NCBI RefSeq assembly: GCF_000427095.1
Contig: NC_021487.1
Location: 2,377,325 to 2,441,324 of the forward strand
Length of the DNA: 64,000 nucleotides
Origin: Chthonomonas calidirosea T49
Lineage (GTDB): Bacteria > Armatimonadota > Chthonomonadetes > Chthonomonadales > Chthonomonadaceae
Direction: 5' to 3'
Made by a program: the position numbers and the translations under genes. The notes below the pieces were generated by a model. That model was not told the DNA's origin, searched no databases, and was given only the letters and a program-made list of their open reading frames with translations. The first letter of the stretch is position 1; the number at the start of each line of letters is the position of its first letter. Of the stretch, positions 3,951-43,333 are shown in pieces.

Positions 3951-4763
3951 CTAACCTGCGTCTCGCAACAGTCGCATCCCACAAGAAAGGATGTTGACCG
4001 CGCCGACCACATCGGCGTTTCCCTCGAAACCACACTCCACACAAGCGAACTTGGCTTGCGTCTGCCGGTTGTCCGCACAGACATGGCCGACAGGTGCGGC
4101 TGGTGTCCTGCGGCGGAACGACAACCCGCCTTGGTCGAGGAGGGACTTGTTCAGGCCCGACTTGGCCCGAACGTTGCTTCCCGGCACATCGGCTGTGCCT
4201 GCCGCCAACTTGGACTTTTTTCGTCCCTGCAAGTCCTCAATACACACCATCGCGTGGTTTTTGCGGATCGCGGTCGAGAGCTTCTGCAGCAAGTCGCGGC
4301 GCCCATTGGCGATGCGGGAATGAGTCTTTGAGACCCTGGCTTTCGCCTTCTTCCCGTTGTTGCTGAACTCTACCTTGCGGCTCATGGCCTGCTGCGCTGT
4401 GCGCAAGGCCACCTCGGGCCGCTTCAAGCGGCCCAGCGGCGCATAGGCGGTCTGGATCGACATGAACCACTTGCCGCAAGAGTGGCTCACGGTGAGGTTC
4501 TTCACGGTACCTAGCACTTCCCGACGGTTGCGGGAGCGCAGCCAGCCCAGCTTGGGCAGAAAGAGGCGGCTGTTGGCCGGGTCGAGTTTGATCGGTTTCG
4601 GACCGGGGTAGCGGAAGCTGTCGTGCTGGCCCCTCTTCTTGAAGCGCGGGAAGCCGCCCTGCTTTGAAGGCTTGGAGGCGCTGCATGTCCGGAATTGTCC
4701 TTTTGGTCTAGGAGCGATGACAACGCTATTGGGCACGGAGGGCACGGCGTTTTCACGATGCAC
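3951..4763 (-). pseudogene. tnpB: tnpB (IS605 OrfB-type RNA-guided nuclease), decayed
   Basis: Family members are about 370-400 residues; here only pieces remain. Recognisable blocks are GFPRFKKRGQHDSFRYP, PKLGWLRSRNRREVLGTVK, the KAKARVSKTHSRIANGRRD helix, MVCIEDLQ with the second RuvC carboxylate, and GFEGNADVVGAVNI with the third. The N-terminal wedge/REC part is missing. The segment with the first RuvC aspartate (normally GID-G) is deleted between FMSIQTAYAP and EVALRTAQQAM. A further deletion removes the first Cys pair of the zinc finger; only the second pair (CVECG) is left. The first residues of the open frame are merely antisense to tnpA. Nuclease activity is therefore not possible. 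No intact tnpB is seen in the window. Confidence 0.9.
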
Positions 4764-7993: not shown

Positions 7994-8848
7994 CTAGCGA
8001 TTCTGACCTGCTTGATAGTTGCACTGATCTTGCCAACCGCTAAAGTTCTGGCGCCACATGGTGGGAGTGAGCATGGTACCATTCACATTCACGTCGGGTC
8101 CGATGGGCTGCCATGTGGCCGACCAGGTAAGCGCTTTGGCGTGGCCGTCTGCGAAGACATAGTTTGACATCGCTCGGTTTCTTTGATCCTTTGGAAGCAC
8201 TTCAGCCGATTCCGATGTCCATGTGTTGGGGCCGCGTCCGCTGATGCGTGAATGGCGGTCAAAACCGGCATTATTCGTAAAGTCTATGCACACGCGACCG
8301 TGAATGTCTTCCCAAGTGGAGAGTTGGTTCCACTCCCATCCATCAACACCAGGAACACTCTCTGCGATGAGAATGCAACTTGTCGGTTGATCGAGGGCGG
8401 CAAGCTTCATCGCCGTCCAAGGGCCGTTGGGCAAGTTGCTGATGTTATACCGATAGGACCCTGGAATGACCTCGTTGGGATTTGTGTTTGGGTCGTAATC
8501 GTGCATTGTTCGCGGCAGGCTATACGAATCGGAGGGGCACTGGAATACCTGCTTGTTCTTGATATAGGGCAGAATAACTTCATCCCAACCAGTGTTCCAT
8601 GGATTGCCCCAAGGTTCCCCAACATCCGCCTGATCGTTGAAGAAGGCTTTAGGAAGGTACTCATCATGATCCTGGGTAAACATGGCAATGGCCATTCCAA
8701 GCTCTCTTGCGTTGCTAAGACACGAGATCTCTCTTGCCTTCTCACGCGCTTGCGCGAAGACAGGGAACAGAATCGCTGCAAATATAGCGATTATTGCTAT
8801 AACGACAAGCAACTCAATTAAGGTAAATGCATTCGATCTAGAGTTCAT
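7994..8848 (-). CDS. DUF1559 / H-X9-DG type pseudopilin
   Basis: Protein of 284 residues with a type IV prepilin-like N-terminus: a short basic leader, then [16 protein letters not shown] with Glu at +5 of the processed protein, and [13 protein letters not shown]. The globular part keeps QDHDEYLP and the C-terminal [14 protein letters not shown] segment, the form of the H-X9-DG signature in this family. Proteins like this are exported and probably processed by a PilD-type peptidase; their function is not established. AGGAG lies about 9 nt before ATG 8848. It is preceded, 60 nt upstream on the same strand, by a 73-residue membrane protein that is probably co-transcribed. Confidence 0.9.
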
Positions 8849-9177: not shown

Positions 9178-10197
9178 TTAGGCCGATGCGCGCAAGACGA
9201 GCTCTGTCGGTATCTCCACATGACGTGGGGCGAGCCACTCCCCTGCCTGACTCGCTTGGATGCGCTCTACCAACATCTGCACAGCCAAATCGCAGATTTG
9301 ATCAAGGGGATAGCGGATGGTGGTGAGCGGTGGATCGAATAGAGCAGAAAGTGGCAGGTCATTGCACCCAACGATGGCGATCTCGTGGGGGATACTGATC
9401 CCTCTATGTCGCAAGCCCGCCAAAGCACCTAGTGCGGTCATATCATTAAAACAGAGAAGTGCATCCGGACGATCCGGTTGAGATACTATTTGTTGTACAC
9501 GAGCATAGGCGACATCAACATCGAAAGCCGTTCCGCAGAATGTGTAGATGGTAGGTTCCTGTCCTATGGTTTTCATAAACTCAGTGTAGTATGTCGAGCG
9601 TACATCTCCCTCACGAGCGACGGAATGCTTTGGTGCGAGATAGGCAATACGATGCCGCCCGTGTGCAACGAGATATTCGAGCGCACTGTGTAGCCCTGTT
9701 TGTAGCACAGCAGCCACACTATCTCGTCCAGGAACACCATAACCAATGACCACCGCATTCGCCATATCTGGCTGCTGTACCCTTTCACGAACCTGAGTAG
9801 AGGTTTCGCACCATAGAAGTACCCCATCTGGACGTCTCGAAAGCAAGGCGTCCAGCAGATGTAGGTCGTTTGGTTCATCGGAGCGTCGAGTGGTCAGAAT
9901 GATTTCGTACCCGCGTCGTTCAAGGGCAGCAGAGCAGAGCGCCACCATTCTGGCGAAAAAGGGGTTTTCTACACCGCCGACGAGGAGACCTACAACGTGG
10001 CTTTTGCGTGTACGGAGCTGTTGTGCTGCACGGTTTACCGTATAGCCCAGCTCTTTGGCAGCAGTAAGCACGCGCTTACGGGTCTGTTCTGACACGCGTG
10101 TATTTCCGCGCGTGCCGTTCAGCACACAGGCGGCCGTCGTGTAGTGGACGTTGGCTCGTTTCGCTATTTCACGCAGAGTAGGCTGTTGTGATACCAT
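9178..10197 (-). CDS. LacI-family transcriptional regulator
   Basis: A 339-residue sugar-responsive repressor. Residues 7-55 form the helix-turn-helix and hinge (LREIAKRANVHYTTAACVLNG, LGYTVNRAAQQLRTRKS), followed by a periplasmic-binding-protein-like ligand domain with GLLVGGVENPFFARM, RPDALLCFNDMTALG and the C-terminal PPLTTIRYP block. It is divergent from the epimerase/dehydrogenase operon at 10370, and the 172-nt gap holds its own promoter and a palindromic operator at the transcription start. It is therefore probably autoregulated and controls the divergent operon; the inducer is unknown, perhaps a pentose or hexitol phosphate. Confidence 0.92.
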   Translation of the reverse strand: MVSQQPTLREIAKRANVHYTTAACVLNGTRGNTRVSEQTRKRVLTAAKELGYTVNRAAQQLRTRKSHVVGLLVGGVENPFFARMVALCSAALERRGYEIILTTRRSDEPNDLHLLDALLSRRPDGVLLWCETSTQVRERVQQPDMANAVVIGYGVPGRDSVAAVLQTGLHSALEYLVAHGRHRIAYLAPKHSVAREGDVRSTYYTEFMKTIGQEPTIYTFCGTAFDVDVAYARVQQIVSQPDRPDALLCFNDMTALGALAGLRHRGISIPHEIAIVGCNDLPLSALFDPPLTTIRYPLDQICDLAVQMLVERIQASQAGEWLAPRHVEIPTELVLRASA

Positions 10198-10369: not shown

Positions 10370-12103
10370 ATGCTAGTGAAACACATGAAAAACGCCAAAA
10401 ACGTTCAGGCGCCGCTTGAACCGCGCCCAAAGTCCTCCAACCCTACTTCTCTCTCCCTAGCCTTAGGAGTAAAAACCGATCCGATAGAGTATCGGTACTC
10501 TTTTCAATGGCTCTTTCGCCTCCTGCAAGAGGAGGATATCCACCTCGTACAGCTTGGTACCTTTTTCGAACTTTATCACTTGCCGGATGATGCTTTTCTC
10601 CAACTGCGCGCCGAAGCGGAGGCACATGGCGTTTGTATCCGCAGCCTTTTTACCGCACATCGAGAACTCGGCGGCTTCTTTCGGAAGGAGGCAGGGTATG
10701 AGCAGGTTGCAAGGCGTTGTTATGAACGACTCATCGAGGTAGGTGCCCTGCTCGGTGCCTTGTCTGTGGGCTCCAACCCTGGCGCCGTTATGCGAGATGA
10801 GATTGACTTCAAGCCTGATGGTCTCGCTCGTTATATACGCCATATGAAGGAGCTTATGCACTACGCCTATGAAAAGGGAGTGCGCTGGCTTACCATTGAG
10901 CCGATGTCGTGTCTTGCCGAGCCACCCGCGACGCCGGAAGAGATTCGTTATCTCGCTGAGGAGCTCAACGCCTACCATGCTGCCCATCTTTCCAGCACGG
11001 CCCGGGTAGGCTATTGTGTGGACATCGCCCATGCTTACATAGACAAGAAAGGCGCTTTGTGCTATACGCCGCAGGCTCTCTTCGAGGCCGCCCTGCCAGC
11101 CCTCTACGAGATCCACCTTAAAAACACCGATGCCAGCTTCGCCGCAACCTTCGGGTTCTCGGAGGAGGAACGTCTTCGTGGCGTGATCGAGATCGCTACC
11201 TTTCGCGATCTGCTCTATCAGCATGCGCATCATCTTCCCGTCTCCGAGGTGGTAGGCTACCTCGAGATCAGCGGGCCTAAACGCGGACGAGACTATACCG
11301 ACCCACTTCTGGAATCCCAGCTGCGTAGCTCGCTACGCTATCTCAAGAAACACTTCACCGCCCGTCCTTCAGAGGCCGTCCTTTCGCCGACACCTTCGCG
11401 AACCGTGCGCGTTGCGCCCTCCATGATGTGTGCTGACCAGGCCCATCTTGCCGATGAGGTGCGCGAACTGGAGATGCTGGGTGTAGACTGGCTCCATATG
11501 GATATTATGGACACCCATTTTGTGCCCAACATGCCCCTTGGTCTCACCACGGTAGAGCATTTGCGCTCTTTAACCCGTCTTCCCTTTGATGTCCATCTCA
11601 TGGTGGAGCATAACGAGCTCTTTATCGAGCGATTGGCAAAGATAGGGGTTCAATCCATCTCCGTACATGCCGAGTCCACACGGCATCTCGATCGGGTGCT
11701 TAGTCTCATTCGCGCCCACGGAATTCAGGCCGGTGTGGCGTTAAACCCGGCAACCCCGCTCTCCGCCCTCGAATACGTGCGAGAGCTGATAGATTTTGTG
11801 CTTATCATGACGGTGAACCCAGGTTTTGCTGGGCAGCTGCTGACCGCCTCGGCCATCCGCAAGATAGAGGATTGTCGCCGCTGGCTCGATGAGAGAGGTT
11901 TGTCGCAACTGCCGATTCAAGTGGATGGCAATGTAAGTTTTACCAACATTGCTCGCATGGTGGCTGCAGGCGCCGATATCCTCGTTGTCGGTTCTAGCAG
12001 CCTCTTTGCTTCGGAACGGCCACGTCTAGAAAATATGCGTCGAATTGAACAGGCCATTGAGGAAGGGATGAGACTACGCCAAGAGAGATCGCGAAAGCCA
12101 TGA
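10370..12103 (+). CDS. fusion of a sugar-phosphate isomerase-like TIM barrel and ribulose-phosphate 3-epimerase
   Basis: A 577-residue protein with two TIM-barrel halves. Residues about 35-335 resemble the xylose-isomerase-like/AP-endonuclease-2 family (IolE, hexulose-phosphate isomerase type), with YEKGVRWLTIEPMS, VGYCVDIAHAY and YEIHLKNTDA as likely metal-site strands. Residues about 345-570 are a complete ribulose-phosphate 3-epimerase: VAPSMMCADQ, the metal-binding H and D in WLHMDIMDTHFVPN, DVHLMVEH, MTVNPGFAGQ and the catalytic Asp in QVDGNVS. Normally these are separate proteins. The start is unsure because no good ribosome binding site precedes ATG 10370; ATG 10385 is an alternative. 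The next gene starts within its stop codon (ATGA), so the two are coupled. Together they suggest conversion of a polyol or keto-sugar phosphate into the pentose phosphate pathway. Confidence 0.85.
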   Translation: MLVKHMKNAKNVQAPLEPRPKSSNPTSLSLALGVKTDPIEYRYSFQWLFRLLQEEDIHLVQLGTFFELYHLPDDAFLQLRAEAEAHGVCIRSLFTAHRELGGFFRKEAGYEQVARRCYERLIEVGALLGALSVGSNPGAVMRDEIDFKPDGLARYIRHMKELMHYAYEKGVRWLTIEPMSCLAEPPATPEEIRYLAEELNAYHAAHLSSTARVGYCVDIAHAYIDKKGALCYTPQALFEAALPALYEIHLKNTDASFAATFGFSEEERLRGVIEIATFRDLLYQHAHHLPVSEVVGYLEISGPKRGRDYTDPLLESQLRSSLRYLKKHFTARPSEAVLSPTPSRTVRVAPSMMCADQAHLADEVRELEMLGVDWLHMDIMDTHFVPNMPLGLTTVEHLRSLTRLPFDVHLMVEHNELFIERLAKIGVQSISVHAESTRHLDRVLSLIRAHGIQAGVALNPATPLSALEYVRELIDFVLIMTVNPGFAGQLLTASAIRKIEDCRRWLDERGLSQLPIQVDGNVSFTNIARMVAAGADILVVGSSSLFASERPRLENMRRIEQAIEEGMRLRQERSRKP

Positions 12104-13155
12104 CAACTATGCATGCCCTTGTGCTCCACCAAGTTGGGGATGTGCGTTACGAGCCGATACCCTGTCCAGAGCCGGGCCCAGGCCAGGTAAGGATAAGGGT
12201 AGGCTATTGTGGGGTCTGCGGATCGGACATTCCACGGCTCTTCGAGAAAGGCACCTACCGATTTCCGTTGGTGTGCGGCCATGAGTTCGCCGGCACCGTT
12301 GATCTCTGCGGCCCTGATGTAGAGGGGTTTGAAAAAGGACAAGCGGTAACCGTTTTCCCACTCATCTGGTGTGGTCGCTGTTCTGCTTGTGAGAGAGGGA
12401 ACTACGCGCAGTGCTTCGATTATAGCTATCTTGGCTCGCGTGAGAACGGAGCCTTCGCAGAATACGTTGTGGCGCCTGCCTGCAATCTCCTGCCGGTGCC
12501 TGAAGGGGTATCGCTGGAAGAGGCTGCAATGACCGAGCCGGCTGCCGTTGCCCTTCATGCGCTTCGGCGCACCGGTCGAAACCTCACCGGGCTTACTGTG
12601 GCGGTTTTCGGTTGCGGCCCCATTGGGCTGCTCGCGGCGCTCTGGGCGCGTTTAGGAGGAGCGGCGAAAATCCTCTTGTTCGATGTTGTAGAAGAGAAGC
12701 TCTCTTTGGCGAGAGGCTTGGGCTTTGCAAGGGTCTTTTCAACAAAGGAGGAAGATCCCGTAAGACGCATCGAGATAGAGACGATGGCACAGGGGGCCGA
12801 TATCTGCATCGAGGCCGCCGGTGTGCCGGCTACGTTGATTCAAGCCTGTAGCGCCTGTGGGCGGGGTGGACATGTTGTGTTGCTGGGTAACCCGGCCACC
12901 GACGTGGTGCTGTCGGCACCGCTTCTTTCGCAGATGATGCGCCGTGAGGTCACGGTGGTTGGTACGTGGAACTCGGAGTATGGCGTTTACACCACCTCGG
13001 ACGACTGGCACACCACGCTCTCCGCAATGGCCACCGGGCAGTTCAACGTGAAACCCCTGATCTCACACAAAGTGCCATTGGTGCAGGCGGTAGAGATGTT
13101 GCAGGCGATGCATCAACGAAGAGTTCATTCAGTTAAAGTGCTTATCGCGCCGTAG
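12100..13155 (+). CDS. zinc-dependent medium-chain polyol dehydrogenase (GatD/sorbitol dehydrogenase-like)
   Basis: A 351-residue NAD(P)-dependent dehydrogenase. The GroES-like domain carries the catalytic-zinc Cys in CGVCGSD and the GHEFAG motif, and the structural zinc loop CGRCSACERGNYAQC. The Rossmann fold follows with VAVFGCGPIGLLAA. Similarity is greatest to galactitol-1-phosphate or sorbitol-type dehydrogenases as judged by motif spacing; the substrate is inferred. It overlaps the fusion epimerase gene by 4 nt, so both enzymes are made together, probably under the LacI regulator at 9178-10197. Confidence 0.88.
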   Translation: MTTMHALVLHQVGDVRYEPIPCPEPGPGQVRIRVGYCGVCGSDIPRLFEKGTYRFPLVCGHEFAGTVDLCGPDVEGFEKGQAVTVFPLIWCGRCSACERGNYAQCFDYSYLGSRENGAFAEYVVAPACNLLPVPEGVSLEEAAMTEPAAVALHALRRTGRNLTGLTVAVFGCGPIGLLAALWARLGGAAKILLFDVVEEKLSLARGLGFARVFSTKEEDPVRRIEIETMAQGADICIEAAGVPATLIQACSACGRGGHVVLLGNPATDVVLSAPLLSQMMRREVTVVGTWNSEYGVYTTSDDWHTTLSAMATGQFNVKPLISHKVPLVQAVEMLQAMHQRRVHSVKVLIAP

Positions 13156-13837: not shown

Positions 13838-15004
13838 TTACTTTTCAGGTTTGGTCCATTGTCGTGTCTCGCAGGAACGTTCTACGGCTGAGAGCACAGC
13901 TTGGTTCCTATAGCCGTCTTCGAAGTTAGGGGTAAATGGGGTTCCACGCACGATGGCCAAGAGGAAGTCGTGCACAAGATTAATGAAGGTATGCTCGTAG
14001 CCGATGATATGGGCAACCGGCCAATAGGCGCTCATATAGGGCATAAAGCTTTCGGTGGACTGAACTAGGTGGAAGCCCTGAACGCCCTGGGGGTCATCGG
14101 TAAGATAGATTTCGAACTCGTTCATGCGCTCTTGATTAAAGACGATGGAGCCTTTTTCTCCATTGATTTCCCACCGATGATAGTTTTTGCGCCCCGGAGC
14201 AAGGCGGGTGGCTTCGAAAGTGGCAGTCGCGCCGTTTTCTAGTCGGGCGAGAAATGCCGTCACGTCATCTACGGTCACTTCTCCCATATCCTGAGCGGCT
14301 TTAAAACCGGCCAGGCCTCCTTCGGTATCGGCAAGGAGGGGGCGTTTTTTGATAAACGTCTCTTGAAGCCCAATGACTTCGGCGAACTCGGTGCCCATAA
14401 CGAATCGAGCGGTATCTATGAGGTGGCCGTTCAGGTCGCCATGCGAGCCGCTACCGGCAATGCTTTTATCAAGACGCCATACGAGGGGCACGTTGGGGTC
14501 TACAATCCAGTCTTGGAGGTAGGTAGCACGGAAATGGCGCACTTTGCCGATGCGCCCCTCTCGCACGAGTTGAGCAATGTAGGCCACAGCTGGTACAAAG
14601 CGATAGTTATGGCAGATCCCGTGAACGAGACCGCTCTTTTTAGCGAGCTCATAGGAGGCACGTGCGTCCTCTAGAGTGGTGGCAAGCGGCTTTTCACAGA
14701 GCACATGTTTGCCTGCTTTCAAAGCTGCTTGGGCGATCTGGGCGTGGGTATTATTAGGAGTTCCGATGTCTATAATATCAATATCATTTCGTGCCACCAC
14801 ATCTTCCCAGTTTGTGGCGTACTCTTGCCACCCGAAGCGCTCTTGAGCAGCCCGTACTTTCTGTTCATGACGTCCGCATATCACCTTGAGGACGGGTTCG
14901 ACCTCGATATCGAAAAAGCGTGCTACCTGCCGATAGGCGTTGCTATGCGCTTTGCCCATGAACTGGTAGCCGATAAGGGCGACATTGAGCTGTTTTTTCG
15001 CCAT
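13838..15004 (-). CDS. Gfo/Idh/MocA-family oxidoreductase
   Basis: A 388-residue NAD(P)-dependent sugar oxidoreductase. The Rossmann fold begins at NVALIGYQFMGKAHSNAY; the family signature EKPLA appears in GKHVLCEKPLATT; the substrate side shows GSHGDLNGHLIDTARFVMG, whose Asp/His pair is catalytic in relatives. A GGAGGT box lies 9 nt before ATG 15004. Members oxidise inositols, glucosides or similar sugars; the substrate is unknown here. It precedes the HIT gene by 4 nt. Confidence 0.88.
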   Translation of the reverse strand: MAKKQLNVALIGYQFMGKAHSNAYRQVARFFDIEVEPVLKVICGRHEQKVRAAQERFGWQEYATNWEDVVARNDIDIIDIGTPNNTHAQIAQAALKAGKHVLCEKPLATTLEDARASYELAKKSGLVHGICHNYRFVPAVAYIAQLVREGRIGKVRHFRATYLQDWIVDPNVPLVWRLDKSIAGSGSHGDLNGHLIDTARFVMGTEFAEVIGLQETFIKKRPLLADTEGGLAGFKAAQDMGEVTVDDVTAFLARLENGATATFEATRLAPGRKNYHRWEINGEKGSIVFNQERMNEFEIYLTDDPQGVQGFHLVQSTESFMPYMSAYWPVAHIIGYEHTFINLVHDFLLAIVRGTPFTPNFEDGYRNQAVLSAVERSCETRQWTKPEK

Positions 15005-24437: not shown

Positions 24438-24580
24438 AAATAGGAACTTTCCTTGCAGCTTTGTTGTTAATTGTCTTTCAAAGAAGGATTCTTGCAAATG
24501 GTGTAGAAATGAAACATCGTTAGTGAAGAACCGATACTAACATCCCAAATTCCAGATGACGAAGAGGAGGTTCATTGGTA

Positions 24581-25390
24581 ATGAAGCACCATTGTCGCAT
24601 GGCTTTCACGTTAATTGAGCTGCTCGTCGTTATTGCAATTATCGCGATATTGGCAGCTATTCTGTTCCCTGTCTTTGCACAGGCGCGTGAAAAGGCACGA
24701 GCCATCTCTTGTCTCTCCAACTTGAAACAGCAAGGGCTGGCCTTAAACATGTACGTACAGGACTATGATGAGACTTTTCCTATCAATCTCTACTTAGGGC
24801 AGAACAACGGGAACGCCTGCGTGATGACGAGCTATCAAGAGATACAGCCCTACCAGAAGAACTCGTTGATAGTGGTGTGCCCTTCCGACGGCACACCGCT
24901 CAACTTTCCGGTGGCTATGCAGACGATCGGATTACCAGCTCCTTGCCCGGTTTCCCCGGTTCTTATCAAAGTGAGCTATCAGCCCAACTATGCGCTGATT
25001 GATGATGGCGATCCCAATCCGATTTTTGCCGGGGAGACCGGCAGACCAGTGCACCGATTGGCCGAAGTGCAGTTCCCTGTAGAGACCAGTGCCTTTGCCG
25101 ACGCCACCGTTACCCTCCAAGGCCCTACTTCGGCTTTCTGCCTATTTTGTTCCCCGGTGCAGGCACGCCATAACACCACGGTCAACTCGGTCTATGCCGA
25201 TGGTCATGCAAAGGTGGTACACACAAAGCCCTATACCGATGCAAATGGCAACCCTTACGTTGGCACCCAGCTCGACGGGCAGAGCACAAAAGCCTATGTG
25301 GTTACGGATGCTGGGCCGTATCAAAACAGCACGGAGCTTTGGGGCATTCCTTATCAAAAGTCGGATGGGAGTTGGGGCCTGCTTCCGTAG
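24581..25390 (+). CDS. DUF1559 / H-X9-DG type pseudopilin
   Basis: A 269-residue pseudopilin: leader MKHHCRMA, then [16 protein letters not shown] and [12 protein letters not shown], the QDYDETFP segment, and a complete H-X9-DG signature in [20 protein letters not shown] 24581 has GAGGAGG 10 nt upstream; the in-frame TTG 24575 is too close to that box. It lies 143 nt after the TPR pair and may be separately transcribed. Confidence 0.9.
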
Positions 25391-25842: not shown

Positions 25843-26652
25843 CTATTGTTGAACACTGGGGTCGCCGTAGGCGAGTCCCCAGAAGCCCCATTCGTTCTTC
25901 TTGCCACTATACTCTACACCCTCCGGATAGAGTTTTGAGAACTGATACCAGTGCACGTGCCCGTCCATGTGCAGCACGTTGGAGCCGGAGTTATGTCGCC
26001 CTTGAAAGCTTGGGCTGCCCCAGAAGTTCGGCTGTGGGTTGCCAACACCACCTGGCCACAGGAAACCTGCCGCCGGAAAGTCAATCATCATCGCCGCCTT
26101 CGCCGAGCTTACGATATCGGGATTGTCGAAGGAGATAGGGGCTTCGTAACCCCCATAAAGGCCGGGACAACTATTAGGGACCCAGTGGCTGTCATAGGTC
26201 AGCATAATGTTGTTGAAGTCGTAGTCCATGGGCGGGTAGACATCGTCATAGTACTGAGCATCGCCTACGTTGGAGTGAGGTAAGCCTACGCAACCATCGT
26301 CGGGAGGAAGCATATAGTCGCCCTGGCCGTTATCACGCTGCTTATGTTGGATCGTGCCCATCGGGAAGGTAGAGGATGGGCATTTAAACAGCTGAGCGTT
26401 TTTGATATAGGGCTCTAGACGTGCCGCCACGATGTAGCTATTAGGCCAGATGTAGACTGGCATATAGTTATCGTAGTCTTGCGCGTACATCAGCATAGCT
26501 AGGCCGATCTGCTTCATGTTGGAGAGGCAGGCGGTTTGACGTGCTTTCTCACGCGCTTGGGCGAAGACTGGGAAGAGAATAGCTGCTAGTATCGCAATAA
26601 TCGCAATAACTACTAGCAGTTCAATCAGTGTGAAACCTTTGCTGCGTTGCAT
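25843..26652 (-). CDS. DUF1559 / H-X9-DG type pseudopilin
   Basis: A 269-residue pseudopilin with the leader [35 protein letters not shown], a QDYDNYMP segment, and the full H-X9-DG signature in [17 protein letters not shown]. An AAAGGA box lies upstream of ATG 26652. A small lipoprotein gene follows. Confidence 0.9.
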
Positions 26653-38084: not shown

Positions 38085-38837
38085 TCACGGTAACGTGTCG
38101 TGGTCGGTGTAGGGGGCGCTTTTACCTTGCCCTACAAAGGGCCAGTGGAGGTCGGGACCGTTGCCGTAGCGCGCGCTTGTAGTGTCCACCAACCAGACGC
38201 TTTTTGCATGTCCATCCACAAATACTGTGTTAAGGTGAGCGCGCGAGTCGTACTCCGAGTAGTGCCCCGGATCATGATAGTCCCACTGTTCCCACACCAT
38301 GGCCGTGTCGGCAGGATACTCCACATCGTTGATGTGAACGCCCTCGGAAAGGAACATCTTGAACTCGTAGGAGGTTACAGGACGCGCCTTGCGATCGGTA
38401 TCTGCCGGGCAGAAGAGGGGGGAGTCGCCCTGAGTTGACGTGCCATATAGGCTGCTGAGGGCATAGGGGAGTGCCAGGGAGGCCCATGATACCTGAGAAG
38501 GTTGGAGGTCTTCCGCACGACAGAAACTGTTATGCCAGGTGAGGAGGTCGTCTGGGTGCGCTCGGACCTGTGGGTCTACGGTGTAGGCAGGAAACGCTTC
38601 GTCGTAGTCTTGGACGTAAAGCGCGAGGGCGATGCCGATTTGGTGAAGATTCTGAAGGCAGGCCGCCTTTTGTGCCGAGCGTCTCCCGGAGAGAAAAACA
38701 GGTAGAAGCACGGCACTCAGCACTGCAAGAACGGCCATGACAAAGAGCAGCTCCATCAGCGTAAAGCCCGATGGTTGGCGGGCTTTTCGACGAAGCGTAG
38801 AAAACCGAAACTTTTGATCCAGAATGCGCGCTTTCAT
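38085..38837 (-). CDS. DUF1559 / H-X9-DG type pseudopilin, divergent N-terminus
   Basis: A 250-residue pseudopilin with a longer basic leader (about 24 residues) before FTLMELLFVMAVLAVL and FLSGRRSAQKAA. It diverges from the FAQAREKAR consensus of its paralogues. It keeps VQDYDEAFP and an H-X-type signature ending RAHLNTVFVDGHAKSVW. The ORF may start at an internal codon, as the leader length is unusual. Confidence 0.85.
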   Translation of the reverse strand: MKARILDQKFRFSTLRRKARQPSGFTLMELLFVMAVLAVLSAVLLPVFLSGRRSAQKAACLQNLHQIGIALALYVQDYDEAFPAYTVDPQVRAHPDDLLTWHNSFCRAEDLQPSQVSWASLALPYALSSLYGTSTQGDSPLFCPADTDRKARPVTSYEFKMFLSEGVHINDVEYPADTAMVWEQWDYHDPGHYSEYDSRAHLNTVFVDGHAKSVWLVDTTSARYGNGPDLHWPFVGQGKSAPYTDHDTLP

Positions 38838-39113: not shown

Positions 39114-40004
39114 ATGAAATGTTTGAGAAAGGCTTTTACACTTATTGAGCTTCTCGTCGTTATAGCGATAATCGCTATACTAGCAGCCATTCTGTTTCCT
39201 GTTTTTGCCCAGGCAAGAGAGGCAGCAAGAAAAGCAACCTGCATCTCCAACCTCAGGCAGATCAGCACGGCCGTGTTTATGTATGCTCAGGACTACGATG
39301 AAACTCCGCCTGAAACGGGCTGGCAAGGCCCCTGTAGCAGCCCTACTCCCAACGCCAATGGCATCTATCCTCTAGGAGACCAGTACTTCAGTGGAGTTTT
39401 CTCTTTTCCCATCGCTACAGCTCCCTACATCAAGAATTGGCAGATATTTAGTTGTCCTAGCGACCCGGATAAGGGTGGATTCAACAAGTACTATTCTTAC
39501 TGCTATGAAGCTCAATTACTGGCAGTTCATATGCCAAACTCTTATCCAGGAATGAGAAAGGATGTTAACGCCTTCCTGCGCTCTTTCCCTCTGTCTTATG
39601 CAGGAAATTACTTTTTGAGTTCGGCTTACGATCCCACCTTGAACCCGTCTGGATATCGCGGAGGGAAGATGTATTCGCTCGCCTACTACCACTGCCCCTC
39701 CAATGTATTTTTCGCAACAGATGTGGGGTCGAGGCTTCTATCAAACGGTGTCATTTTTGCTGGTTGGTACATAGCTCCTGGATATGATAACGATGCTGCA
39801 GGGCAAGGACGATGGCCTAAAGGGAAGCGGCATGCGCTGGGACGTAACTGGATCTTCTGCGATGGTCATGTGAAGTGGTTCAAAGACCCTCCCTTCTTAA
39901 ACCCAGATGGAACTCCAAAAACACAGGGCCAGGTTATGTGGGAGTACCAGCACATGGGAATCTACACCTATCCAGAGGCCGACAGCCCCGACTATACGCG
40001 CTAG
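39114..40004 (+). CDS. DUF1559 / H-X9-DG type pseudopilin
   Basis: A 296-residue pseudopilin: leader [36 protein letters not shown], the AQDYDETPP segment, and H-X9-DG in [25 protein letters not shown] lies 10 nt before ATG 39114. It is divergent from the pseudopilin at 38085-38837. Confidence 0.9.
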
Positions 40005-40627: not shown

Positions 40628-43333
40628 ATGATCATAGAAAACTTGCGATGTGAATATCTTTCAAACCCGTTGGGGATTGATGTGCTGCAGCCACGCCTTA
40701 GTTGGGAGCTTCGTGAGGAACGACGCGGGGCGCGCCAAACCGCCTATGCCATTCGTGTTGCTACCTCCCGCGAAACACTTCTTGCCGGCGAGGCCGACCT
40801 GTGGGAGAGCGGCAAAGTCGAGTCAGAGCATACGTTTCACATTCCCTATGAGGGAAAGCCTCTGCGCTCCATGCAACGCGCCTGGTGGAGCGTACGTGTG
40901 TGGGATGAGCAAGGACAACCCTCTGAGTGGGCAGAGCCGGCCTGGTGGGAGATGGGGCTTTTAACGCCAGATGACTGGAAGGCTGAGTGGATTGGTGCCC
41001 CCATCGTAGGAGGACGTCGCGCCGGTGTGCCCTGCCCCTATCTCCGCAAGGAGTTCACCATCGGACGCTCCATTCGGCAGGCGCGTCTTTACATTACGGC
41101 CCTTGGTCTCTATGATGCCAGCATCAACGGCCAACCTGTGGGTGATGTCGTCCTCGCTCCAGGATGGACAGAGTATAGGAAGCGCGTGGAGTATTTTGTG
41201 TACGATGTAACTCAGCAACTCCACGTCGGCACCAACGCGATAGGGGTTATTCTCGGCGATGGGTGGTTCTGTGGGCATGTCGCTTGGTGGGGCCGGCAGA
41301 TCTATGGGGAGGCACCGCGCCTCTTGGCGCAGCTTGTTATTCTCTATGAGAATGGCGAAACCCAGTATATTCCCACCGATTCCACTTGGCAGTTTTCCAC
41401 CGGCCCGTTACTAGAAGCTGACCTTCTTATGGGGGAGACGTACAACGCTCGCCTTGAGATGCCCGGCTGGAACTGCCCAGGATTCGCTGCAGAGGGTTGG
41501 AAACCGGTGCAGGTCTTTGCGCCGTGGCCGGCTCCGCTTTGCGCGCGCATAGGGCCTCCCGTGCGACGGAAGGAGGAGCTATCGCCCATCGAAGAGCCGC
41601 GGCAGGTCTCAAACTGGCCCATGCCCGCCTGGATATTCGATCTAGGGCAAAACATGGTGGGCCGTGTGCGCCTTAAGGTGAAGGGCGATCCTGGCACCAC
41701 GATTCGACTGCGCTACGGTGAAATGCTTAAGCCAGACGGAAGCCTGTACACCGAAAATCTGCGCACTGCCAAACAGACCGACACCTATGTGCTGCGCGGA
41801 GGTGACGAGGAGATTTACGAGCCTCTCTTCACTTTTCATGGCTTTCGTTATGTGGAGGTAACCGGCCTAACGGAAAAGCCGAGCAAAGACCTCATCACGG
41901 GCATAGTGCTCCACACTGATATGCCGCTAACGGGTACGTTCTCCTGCTCCGAACCCCTGCTGAACCAACTCCAGCACAACATTGTGTGGGGACATAAGGG
42001 CAACTCCGTGGATATCCCTACCGACTGCCCCCAACGCGATGAACGATTGGGTTGGACGGGCGACGCCCAGGTGTTCGTGCGCACCGGTGCCTTTGTTCAC
42101 GACATCGAAAGCTTTTTCGCGCGCTGGCTGCAAACAGTGGAGGATTCGCAAAATGAAGAGGGGGCCATTCCTCCTGTTTGCCCGAACCCTTGTCCCGCCA
42201 TGGTGGGCACGGATGGTGGACCAGCGTGGGCCGATGCCATCATCATCTGTCCTTGGACTCTCTATCTCTGCTACGGCGATAAGCGGATATTAGAAGGCCG
42301 CTACGCCAGTATGGCGCGTTTCATGGCCTACTTGGAGAAGACTGCCATCAATGGCATTCGCTGCCACCCAGAGTATAGTGGCTTTCGGGGCTTTGGTGAT
42401 TGGCTCTCCACAAATGCTGAGACCCCCTTAGACCTTATCGGCACCGCTTTCTACGCGTACGATGCCTCCCTCATGGCCGAGATCGCTAAAGTGCTGGGAA
42501 AGGAGGAGGATGAGAAACGCTATCGGCAGCTGTACGAAACGATTCGGAGCGCCTTTCAGAGGCGTTTTCTTACGCCTGATGGGCTTTTGGTAAGCGGTAC
42601 ACAGACGGCCTGTGTCCTCGCTTTGGAGTTCGATCTCGTTCCTGAATCCGTAAGGGCTGCCGTCGCGAAAGCGCTCGTTCACGATATTCGTGCGCGTGGT
42701 TATCATCTTTCTACCGGCTTTGTCGGCACTCCCTATCTTCTCCATGTGCTGACGCGGGAGGGCTATCTCGATGTGGCCTATAGGTTGCTGCTACAGCGCA
42801 CCTGGCCTTCTTGGCTCTACCCGGTGACGAAAGGAGCGACCACGGTATGGGAGCGTTGGGATAGTTGGACGGAGGAGAAAGGGTTTCAAGACCCTGCCAT
42901 GAACTCATTTAACCACTATGCCTACGGCGCCGTAGGGGCGTGGCTGTATCAGGTTGTGGCCGGAATCGATCTCGACCCAAAATCACCGGGCTATCGTCAT
43001 ATTCGGTTGGCGCCGAGGCCGGGAGGTGGGCTTACCCATGCCGAAGCCTCTCTTAGGACGGTGTGTGGTTTGGTTCGTAGCGCCTGGCGTATCGAAGACG
43101 GACGGTTGCTATGGGAGGTGGAGGTTCCCACGAACACCACGGCGACAGCGATTCTCCCGGTCCAATCCGATGCCGATGTGTTGGAAGCCGATAGGCCTCT
43201 CTCGGAAAGTCTGGGGGTGAAGCTGCTGGAGATGACATCGGATGGCGTCGTCCTCCATCTCGATTCGGGCCAATACCGTTTTCTTGCACCGTGGAGTTCG
43301 ACCGAACCAACCCGATCTCCCGTGGACAAATAA
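40628..43333 (+). CDS. GH78 alpha-L-rhamnosidase
   Basis: A 901-residue enzyme that releases terminal alpha-L-rhamnose from plant glycosides or pectin. Domain order is typical: an N-terminal fibronectin-like region with LQPRLSWEL and QTAYAIRVATS, the jelly-roll domain (FTIGRSIRQARLYITALGLYDASINGQPVG), and the (alpha/alpha)6 barrel with the family hallmark DCPQRDERLGWTGDAQ that holds catalytic acids, plus a C-terminal beta domain. No signal peptide is seen, so it acts on imported glycosides. The 243-nt upstream gap holds a TTGACA (-35-like) sequence but no convincing -10, and an RBS is weak. Confidence 0.96.
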   Translation: MIIENLRCEYLSNPLGIDVLQPRLSWELREERRGARQTAYAIRVATSRETLLAGEADLWESGKVESEHTFHIPYEGKPLRSMQRAWWSVRVWDEQGQPSEWAEPAWWEMGLLTPDDWKAEWIGAPIVGGRRAGVPCPYLRKEFTIGRSIRQARLYITALGLYDASINGQPVGDVVLAPGWTEYRKRVEYFVYDVTQQLHVGTNAIGVILGDGWFCGHVAWWGRQIYGEAPRLLAQLVILYENGETQYIPTDSTWQFSTGPLLEADLLMGETYNARLEMPGWNCPGFAAEGWKPVQVFAPWPAPLCARIGPPVRRKEELSPIEEPRQVSNWPMPAWIFDLGQNMVGRVRLKVKGDPGTTIRLRYGEMLKPDGSLYTENLRTAKQTDTYVLRGGDEEIYEPLFTFHGFRYVEVTGLTEKPSKDLITGIVLHTDMPLTGTFSCSEPLLNQLQHNIVWGHKGNSVDIPTDCPQRDERLGWTGDAQVFVRTGAFVHDIESFFARWLQTVEDSQNEEGAIPPVCPNPCPAMVGTDGGPAWADAIIICPWTLYLCYGDKRILEGRYASMARFMAYLEKTAINGIRCHPEYSGFRGFGDWLSTNAETPLDLIGTAFYAYDASLMAEIAKVLGKEEDEKRYRQLYETIRSAFQRRFLTPDGLLVSGTQTACVLALEFDLVPESVRAAVAKALVHDIRARGYHLSTGFVGTPYLLHVLTREGYLDVAYRLLLQRTWPSWLYPVTKGATTVWERWDSWTEEKGFQDPAMNSFNHYAYGAVGAWLYQVVAGIDLDPKSPGYRHIRLAPRPGGGLTHAEASLRTVCGLVRSAWRIEDGRLLWEVEVPTNTTATAILPVQSDADVLEADRPLSESLGVKLLEMTSDGVVLHLDSGQYRFLAPWSSTEPTRSPVDK

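Follow-up and report, generated by a model that had tools for sequence, protein, structure and literature searches.

A fused EryC-like and ribulose-phosphate 3-epimerase-family protein of Chthonomonas calidirosea T49 belongs to a recurrent gene module, a candidate for sugar-phosphate conversion

The window analysed here is a stretch of 64,000 nucleotides from the genome of Chthonomonas calidirosea T49, the assembly of which consists of one contig (3,437,861 bases, 99.58% complete). It contains an open reading frame (ORF) that joins two TIM barrels, the second one belonging to the ribulose-phosphate 3-epimerase (RPE) family. The gene is followed by a zinc-type dehydrogenase gene, here called ADH1, and preceded by a divergent regulator gene. 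The features of the locus are the following, with positions given in the window.

9178-10197, minus strand: LacI-family regulator (profile matches), divergent, candidate regulator of the pair of fusion and ADH1
10370-12103, plus strand: fused ORF of 577 amino acids, open from ATG to TGA, with an N-terminal xylose-isomerase-like (EryC-like) TIM barrel and a C-terminal RPE-family barrel (Pfam)
10451-11353, plus strand: N half, residues 28-328, metal-dependent ketose-phosphate epimerase/isomerase fold (PF01261; AlphaFold model)
10898-11266, plus strand: codons of the N-half ligand-type residues E177 (10898), D218 (11021), H221 (11030), H249 (11114) and E299 (11264)
11354-11404, plus strand: interdomain linker, residues 329-345, variable in the alignment and predicted to be disordered at 336-343 (pLDDT <50)
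11405-12100, plus strand: C half, residues 346-577, RPE-family barrel of the module clade with the motifs SMMCAD ... DGNVS ... GSSSLF
11420-11926, plus strand: codons of the C-half RPE residues S351 (11420), H376 (11495), D378 (11501), H409 (11594) and D519 (11924)
12100-12103, plus strand: ATGA overlap of the stop of the fusion and the start of ADH1 (GCCATGACAACT)
12100-13155, plus strand: ADH1, zinc-type (MDR) dehydrogenase with ADH_N and ADH_zinc_N domains (Pfam), closest solved structure GatD

The initial annotation described a single protein made of an isomerase-like TIM barrel and an RPE barrel, coupled to a polyol dehydrogenase. This observation is confirmed, and its interpretation is supported in part. 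The ORF matches the Pfam domains AP_endonuc_2 (PF01261) at residues 68-280 (49.4 bits, gathering cut-off 31.1) and Ribul_P_3_epim at residues 348-543 (224.9 bits, gathering cut-off 21.1). Modelled as a whole with AlphaFold2 (mean pLDDT 89.2), the protein consists of two barrels with a disordered link at residues 336-343; the model leaves the placement of the barrels relative to each other open, since its pTM is 0.61. The coupling to ADH1, a dehydrogenase of polyol(-phosphate) type, is real, since the stop codon of the fusion overlaps the ATG of ADH1.

The fusion is not confined to Armatimonadota. Among 291 genomes of this phylum searched with the N half, 19 gave a match, which is strong in 17, remote in G188 and a fragment in G187. 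N half and RPE form a single ORF in 15 of the 17 strong-match genomes, that of T49 included. The halves are two genes of one cluster in G247 (locus L074), in the order N half, ADH1, ADH2, RPE, and two frames overlapping by about 11 bp in G035. A pattern search of a collection of 84,980 species yielded 114 relatives, the best 80 of which were kept as loci. Fifty of these 80 carry a fused ORF, one of them (L101) cut by a contig end. Ten of the 80 loci (eight fused) are Armatimonadota contigs already counted, and without them 42 of 70 are fused. Among the best 80 of the 114 relatives, the fused form occurs in Armatimonadota, Planctomycetota, Verrucomicrobiota, Lentisphaerota, Hydrogenedentota, Omnitrophota and others, whereas the halves are apart in loci of Chloroflexota, Spirochaetota and Bacteroidota. 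In a plasmid collection, the N half had a single match, a weak one (25.7%). A sequencing join of two genes, which the initial annotation had named as one of two refuting findings, or an assembly join is ruled out by the recurrence of the fusion in 15 of 17 strong-match Armatimonadota genomes and in 50 of the best 80 of 114 loci.

In an N-half tree of 81 rows, calculated by a quick method and with five rows trimmed at a stop outside the gene, 13 unfused rows from Spirochaetota, Bacteroidota, Verrucomicrobiota and Lentisphaerota form a separate clade (support 100). The remaining 68 rows are mostly fused (51 fused, 17 apart). Over the tree, the labels fused and apart change 12 times, as compared to 24.3 times in shuffles. 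A single ancestral fusion, followed by splits, would fit this tree. Where the halves are separate but adjacent, their frames overlap in the three loci that were read. The overlap is ATGA in L087 and L091; in L031, with a start that is not certain, it amounts to about 11 bp. In a Planctomycetota MAG (L057:3582-5336), an N-half frame without RPE continues into what looks by eye like a branched-chain aminotransferase domain, which is either a different fusion or an assembly effect.

Both barrels keep their metal-binding segments, as had been read from the window. The residues E177, D218, H221, H249 and E299 of the N half and S351, H376, D378, H409 and D519 of the C half do not vary in any of the 46 aligned fusions (the window and 45 of the 50 fused loci, five being left out). 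The same ligand-type residues of both halves are invariant among the 15 fused Armatimonadota proteins. The ligand-type residues of the first half, the absence of which from orthologues would have refuted the initial annotation by its own terms, are likewise invariant in 31 of 31 N-half rows, comprising the window and all 30 stand-alone N halves. E177, D218, H249 and E299, together with H221, match the Glu-Asp-His-Glu metal set of xylose-isomerase-like barrels. We take the five N-half residues to be ligands by analogy with the family of xylose isomerase-like enzymes and D-psicose/tagatose epimerases (DTE), and the C-half residues to have the ligand roles presumed for the RPE family.

Concerning the identity of the N half, no NCBIfam model gave a match up to E 10, in agreement with the earlier statement that the arrangement has no standard name. 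The top PDB matches of an N-half profile are 3qxb (E 1.6e-5), deposited as a putative xylose isomerase and of not known function, and 4k3z from Brucella melitensis (E 2.7e-4). The N half modelled alone (pLDDT 89.4, pTM 0.88) gave by VIA-align the same order, with Z 31.2 to 3qxb and 29.5 to 4k3z, followed by Art22 (27.4), by D-psicose/tagatose epimerases (DTE/DPE) and UlaE (about 24-25) and by xylose isomerases (about 23.5-23.8). 4k3z was deposited as 'D-erythrulose 4-phosphate dehydrogenase', which we assume to fit the old name of EryC; as judged from this name, 4k3z probably is EryC. With the N half it has in common the TIM-barrel fold (Z 29.5, 287 residues, rmsd 2.7) and, in the profile alignment, the segments EPMS, DxxH and HxK, although the identity is only 19%. 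Thus the N half has an EryC-type fold and motifs, and other members of the superfamily are alike at lower Z. EryC presumably is an unfused protein, unlike the N half of the fusion. The D-tagatose and D-allulose 3-epimerases and UlaE (L-xylulose-5-phosphate 3-epimerase) have the fold of the N half at Z values below those of 4k3z and 3qxb and are not fused; their metal-ligand layout is, as we understand it, common to them and the N half. EryC, an enzyme of Brucella erythritol catabolism, is described as D-/L-erythrulose-1-phosphate 3-epimerase in PMC10733421, hence with a 4-carbon substrate, and as tetrulose-4-phosphate racemase in a figure legend of PMC11508834. With 3qxb and 4k3z as nearest solved relatives by profile and by predicted fold, 'isomerase' seems not to be the best description of the N half. 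EryC belongs to an erythritol operon with eryA, eryB, eryD, eryH and eryI. The neighbours seen in N-half loci are MDR dehydrogenases, RpiR- or DeoR-looking regulators and some rha genes.

The C half resembles housekeeping Rpe in fold and catalytic residues and passes the Rpe equivalog TIGR01163 (226.9 bits, cut-off 212.6), whereas it fails the equivalog of AlsE, the D-allulose-6-phosphate 3-epimerase (NF007266; 184.9 bits, cut-off 271). Nevertheless, module RPEs and housekeeping RPEs are separate clades. In an RPE tree of 45 rows (the window, 31 of 65 other module rows and 13 of 14 non-module rows from 12 carrier genomes), the 32 module RPEs lie on one side of a branch and the 13 non-module RPEs on the other, with support 100/95. 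L132, a slice with stops in both readings, was dropped from this tree; in an earlier tree still holding it, the module rows did not form one clade. The motif SxMC is found in 32 of 32 module RPEs and DGNVS in 31 of 32 (63 of 66 when all module rows are counted), and both are found in 0 of 13 non-module RPEs. Elsewhere in its genome (G000:C1:927153), T49 encodes another RPE, which has the ordinary DGG motif, and at least two RPE matches are present in 13 of 15 carrier genomes searched. Two MAGs, G303 and G306, gave no RPE besides that of the module, which there may also act on ribulose 5-phosphate (Ru5P) or serve the pentose phosphate pathway.

For an unfused module RPE, the first PDB match is AlsE 3ct7 (172.7 bits), in a tie with an Rpe (171.8 bits), whereas the structural matches of the C half have ordinary RPEs first and AlsE at rank 31. 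AlsE and the unfused module RPE share an SLMC-type N-terminal motif. Both phosphate loops are of a non-GG type, DGS in AlsE and DGN in the module, and the ends read GTSGLF in AlsE and GTSSLF-type in the module. By sequence, the C half is a member of a distinct RPE clade with AlsE-like motifs and not a housekeeping RPE. The Rpe model would annotate this clade as plain Rpe, which could mislead metabolic models. For both halves, the initial naming as isomerase and epimerase calls for refinement.

To determine the gene content of the module, the best 80 of the 114 loci were searched by tblastn, RPE with three queries and each other gene with one or two. ADH1 was found in 60, a second dehydrogenase, ADH2, in 27 and a third, ADH3, in 23 of these 80 loci. 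ADH2 and ADH3 occur together in none of them (0/80; naive Fisher p 1.2e-5, which overstates the case because the loci are related). Of the loci, 49 extend for 4 kb or more to each side; RPE is present in 43 of them, ADH1 in 38, and ADH1 together with ADH2 or ADH3 in 33. RPE was not found in 13 of the best 80 loci. Four of the 13 are limited by contig ends and in one the frame runs into another domain; the other eight have neither explanation, two of them lying on short contigs.

At E <= 1e-90, ADH2 has a match in 17 of 17 strong Armatimonadota carriers versus 10 of 274 other genomes (naive p 6.3e-21); of the ten matches outside the carriers, that in G178 is at 93% and the other nine are at 42-58%. 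The ADH2 of T49 lies away from the fusion, at C1:2763881-2764969, with 80% identity to the query over the match. ADH1 has GatD, the galactitol-1-phosphate 5-dehydrogenase, as its top PDB match (200.7 bits, the next one 161.1). Both belong to the same family of MDR hexitol-phosphate dehydrogenases, but ADH1 fails the GatD equivalog NF007642 (230 bits, cut-off 550). The best solved relatives of ADH2 are of the threonine dehydrogenase and ketose reductase/sorbitol dehydrogenase types, and ADH3 is remote from all solved structures (67.1 bits at best). A route made of a SorE-type L-sorbose-1-phosphate reductase and glucitol-6-phosphate dehydrogenase presumably follows the same logic, in which a carbonyl is moved via a hexitol phosphate; as compared to GatD and this SorE-type route, two epimerases are added in the present module.

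Other sugar genes are less frequent. Among the best 80 of 114 loci, L-rhamnose isomerase genes occur in 15, mutarotase genes in 6 and rhamnulokinase-type kinase genes in 3, and most fused loci are without a rha gene or sugar isomerase. In the representatives scanned with HMMs, the rhamnulokinase-type kinase and one of two mutarotases were below the equivalog cut-offs. By eye, many relatives carry RpiR- or DeoR-looking regulators instead of LacI. Three Hydrogenedentota loci (L050, L058 and L066) have, downstream of ADH2, a gene that looks by eye like LarE, the nickel-pincer cofactor sulfur transferase.

The fusion and the module are well supported. As to their function, we tentatively favour, short of thinking it probable, a bifunctional enzyme of two 3-epimerases which together with two dehydrogenases would convert an L-ketose-1-phosphate to a D-ketose phosphate; hereby we infer the activities, the order of the steps and the substrate. 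The EryC-like N half would most likely invert C3 of a ketose-1-phosphate. The GatD-like ADH1 and a second MDR dehydrogenase, being ADH2 (encoded elsewhere in T49) or ADH3 (in other phyla), would act between the two epimerase steps, together reducing C2 and oxidising the carbon at the opposite end, a redox-neutral move of the carbonyl through a polyol phosphate. The C half, an RPE paralogue with AlsE-like motifs, would then invert C3 of a D-ketose-5- or -6-phosphate. An example would be L-fructose-1-phosphate to L-allulose-1-phosphate, allitol phosphate, D-allulose-6-phosphate and D-fructose-6-phosphate, or the pentose or 6-deoxy analogues.

Provided that each family keeps its chemistry, an enumeration of the eight hexulose-1-phosphates gave a route to D-fructose-6-phosphate with both epimerases from L-fructose-1-phosphate or D-sorbose-1-phosphate only, via D-allulose-6-phosphate. 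The other six also reach D-fructose-6-phosphate, with one epimerase or none; the argument from stereochemistry therefore requires that both halves are in use. Of the pentoses, L-xylulose-1-phosphate or D-ribulose-1-phosphate use both epimerases, via D-ribulose-5-phosphate. For the L-rhamnose isomerase studied there, PMC10908623 lists L-rhamnose at 100%, L-lyxose at 28.2% and L-mannose at 16.4%. The L-rhamnulose, L-xylulose and L-fructose obtained from these sugars have the configuration that the scheme requires, which is suggestive, with two of the eight hexuloses fitting by chance. In its widest form, the scheme would be an L-to-D sugar-phosphate inversion pathway across many phyla. An L-ketose-1-phosphate made by enzymes of L-rhamnose isomerase and rhamnulokinase type from an L-manno-configured sugar would undergo C3 inversion, pass through a meso polyol phosphate and a second C3 inversion and end as D-fructose-6-phosphate, both inversions taking place on one polypeptide in the fused form. 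This wide form we regard as doubtful. If the inversion scheme is true, it would explain how rare L-sugars could enter the D-sugar metabolism of bacteria with no need of an aldolase.

Against the scheme, the T49 genome is without RhaA and without a strong RhaI. A separate RhaI lies near a long class II aldolase frame in two Bacteroidota genomes (G304 and G305), and 13 of 23 carrier genomes match RhaA two or three times, in part with fragments; the isomerase of the module therefore need not act on rhamnose. Moreover, with C3 chemistry in both halves, the two epimerase reactions would be separated by the two dehydrogenase steps. A fusion of enzymes for steps that do not follow each other is unusual, except if the dehydrogenases were to dock on it. 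Gene fusion often joins consecutive steps, which counts for a reading nearer to the initial annotation, which takes the N half for an aldose-ketose isomerase and the C half for an ordinary ribulose-5-phosphate 3-epimerase and assumes direct channelling of one ketose phosphate fed by the polyol dehydrogenase. The C half over the Rpe cut-off, with RPEs as its best structural matches, and the xylose-isomerase fold of the N half, whose top match 3qxb carries that name, agree with it. However, it leaves the two dehydrogenases unexplained, 3qxb and 4k3z outscore the known aldose isomerases, and the module RPE forms a clade of its own beside the separate DGG-motif RPE of T49 and the further RPE matches in most carriers. 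We consider this reading, with its direct channelling between the halves, unlikely. Catabolism of polyols or polyol phosphates of the allitol, ribitol, altritol or tetritol type appears equally improbable to us; ADH1 and ADH2 or ADH3 would be entry dehydrogenases for different polyols, and the epimerases would funnel the products to Fru6P or Xu5P with no L-to-D inversion. The GatD-like ADH1, the likeness of the N half to an erythritol-pathway enzyme, the AlsE-like motifs of the C half and the scarcity of sugar isomerases in fused loci speak for it. On the other hand, RhaA/RhaM/RhaB-type neighbours are found in some loci, and ADH2 and ADH3 replace each other, which fits one obligatory second redox step rather than alternative entries.

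These same neighbours, in or next to the operon in some loci, would fit a RhaD-free route for L-rhamnose, in which L-rhamnulose-1-phosphate would become 1-deoxy-D-fructose-6-phosphate and then be cleaved or fermented. None of the 17 carrier genomes has a match over the cut-off of the RhaD equivalog (E. coli type), and 17 of 19 N-half-bearing Armatimonadota have an L-rhamnose isomerase (RhaA in 12, and in 5 a RhaI-like one that in four cases stays below the curated RhaI cut-off). This is only a mild excess over the phylum at large, where L-rhamnose isomerases are common, RhaA being matched in 92 of 291 genomes and RhaI in 86. Weak RhaD matches occur in 6 of the 17 carriers. All 32 genomes tested match a class II aldolase, G305 and G304 with RhaE-looking frames of 713-719 amino acids, and no gene for 1-deoxyhexulose-6-phosphate was recognised in the loci. 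A module for L-rhamnose only is weakened by these aldolases, by the further RhaA matches and by T49 itself, with neither RhaA nor a strong RhaI, and we rate it as quite unlikely. Dead-domain fusions exist in general and N halves without RPE in the locus do occur, so one half might be catalytically idle, with a second RPE tethered to a scaffold or regulator barrel. Yet the ligand-type residues are invariant in both halves (46/46 fusions, and 31/31 rows for the N-half set) and both halves also exist as separate neighbouring genes, which makes an idle half very improbable.

The components are members of known families, whereas their arrangement and the two-epimerase pathway that we favour appear to be undescribed within the literature searched. 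The search, with most subscription journals outside its scope, found no paper on the fusion, and none of the words rhamnose, epimerase, isomerase, allose and mannitol turned up in the main text of PMC4959169. The module of two epimerases, a GatD-like and a second dehydrogenase is a testable candidate for an undescribed sugar catabolism.

Several other ORFs of the window were noted. Near the module, 13838-15004 (minus strand) encodes a Gfo/Idh/MocA dehydrogenase, for which the closest model is that of levoglucosan dehydrogenase, at 391.9 bits and below the cut-off of 650. At 40628-43333 (plus strand), an ORF of 901 amino acids looks by eye like an alpha-L-rhamnosidase, in a genome without RhaA or strong RhaI. 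An ORF at 3951-4763 (minus strand) resembles by eye a degraded TnpB-type transposase. Finally, a prepilin-like start segment (...FPVFAQARE) is near-identical in four ORFs (7994-8848, 24575-25390, 25843-26652 and 39114-40004), and a fifth ORF at 38085-38837 carries a looser version of it.
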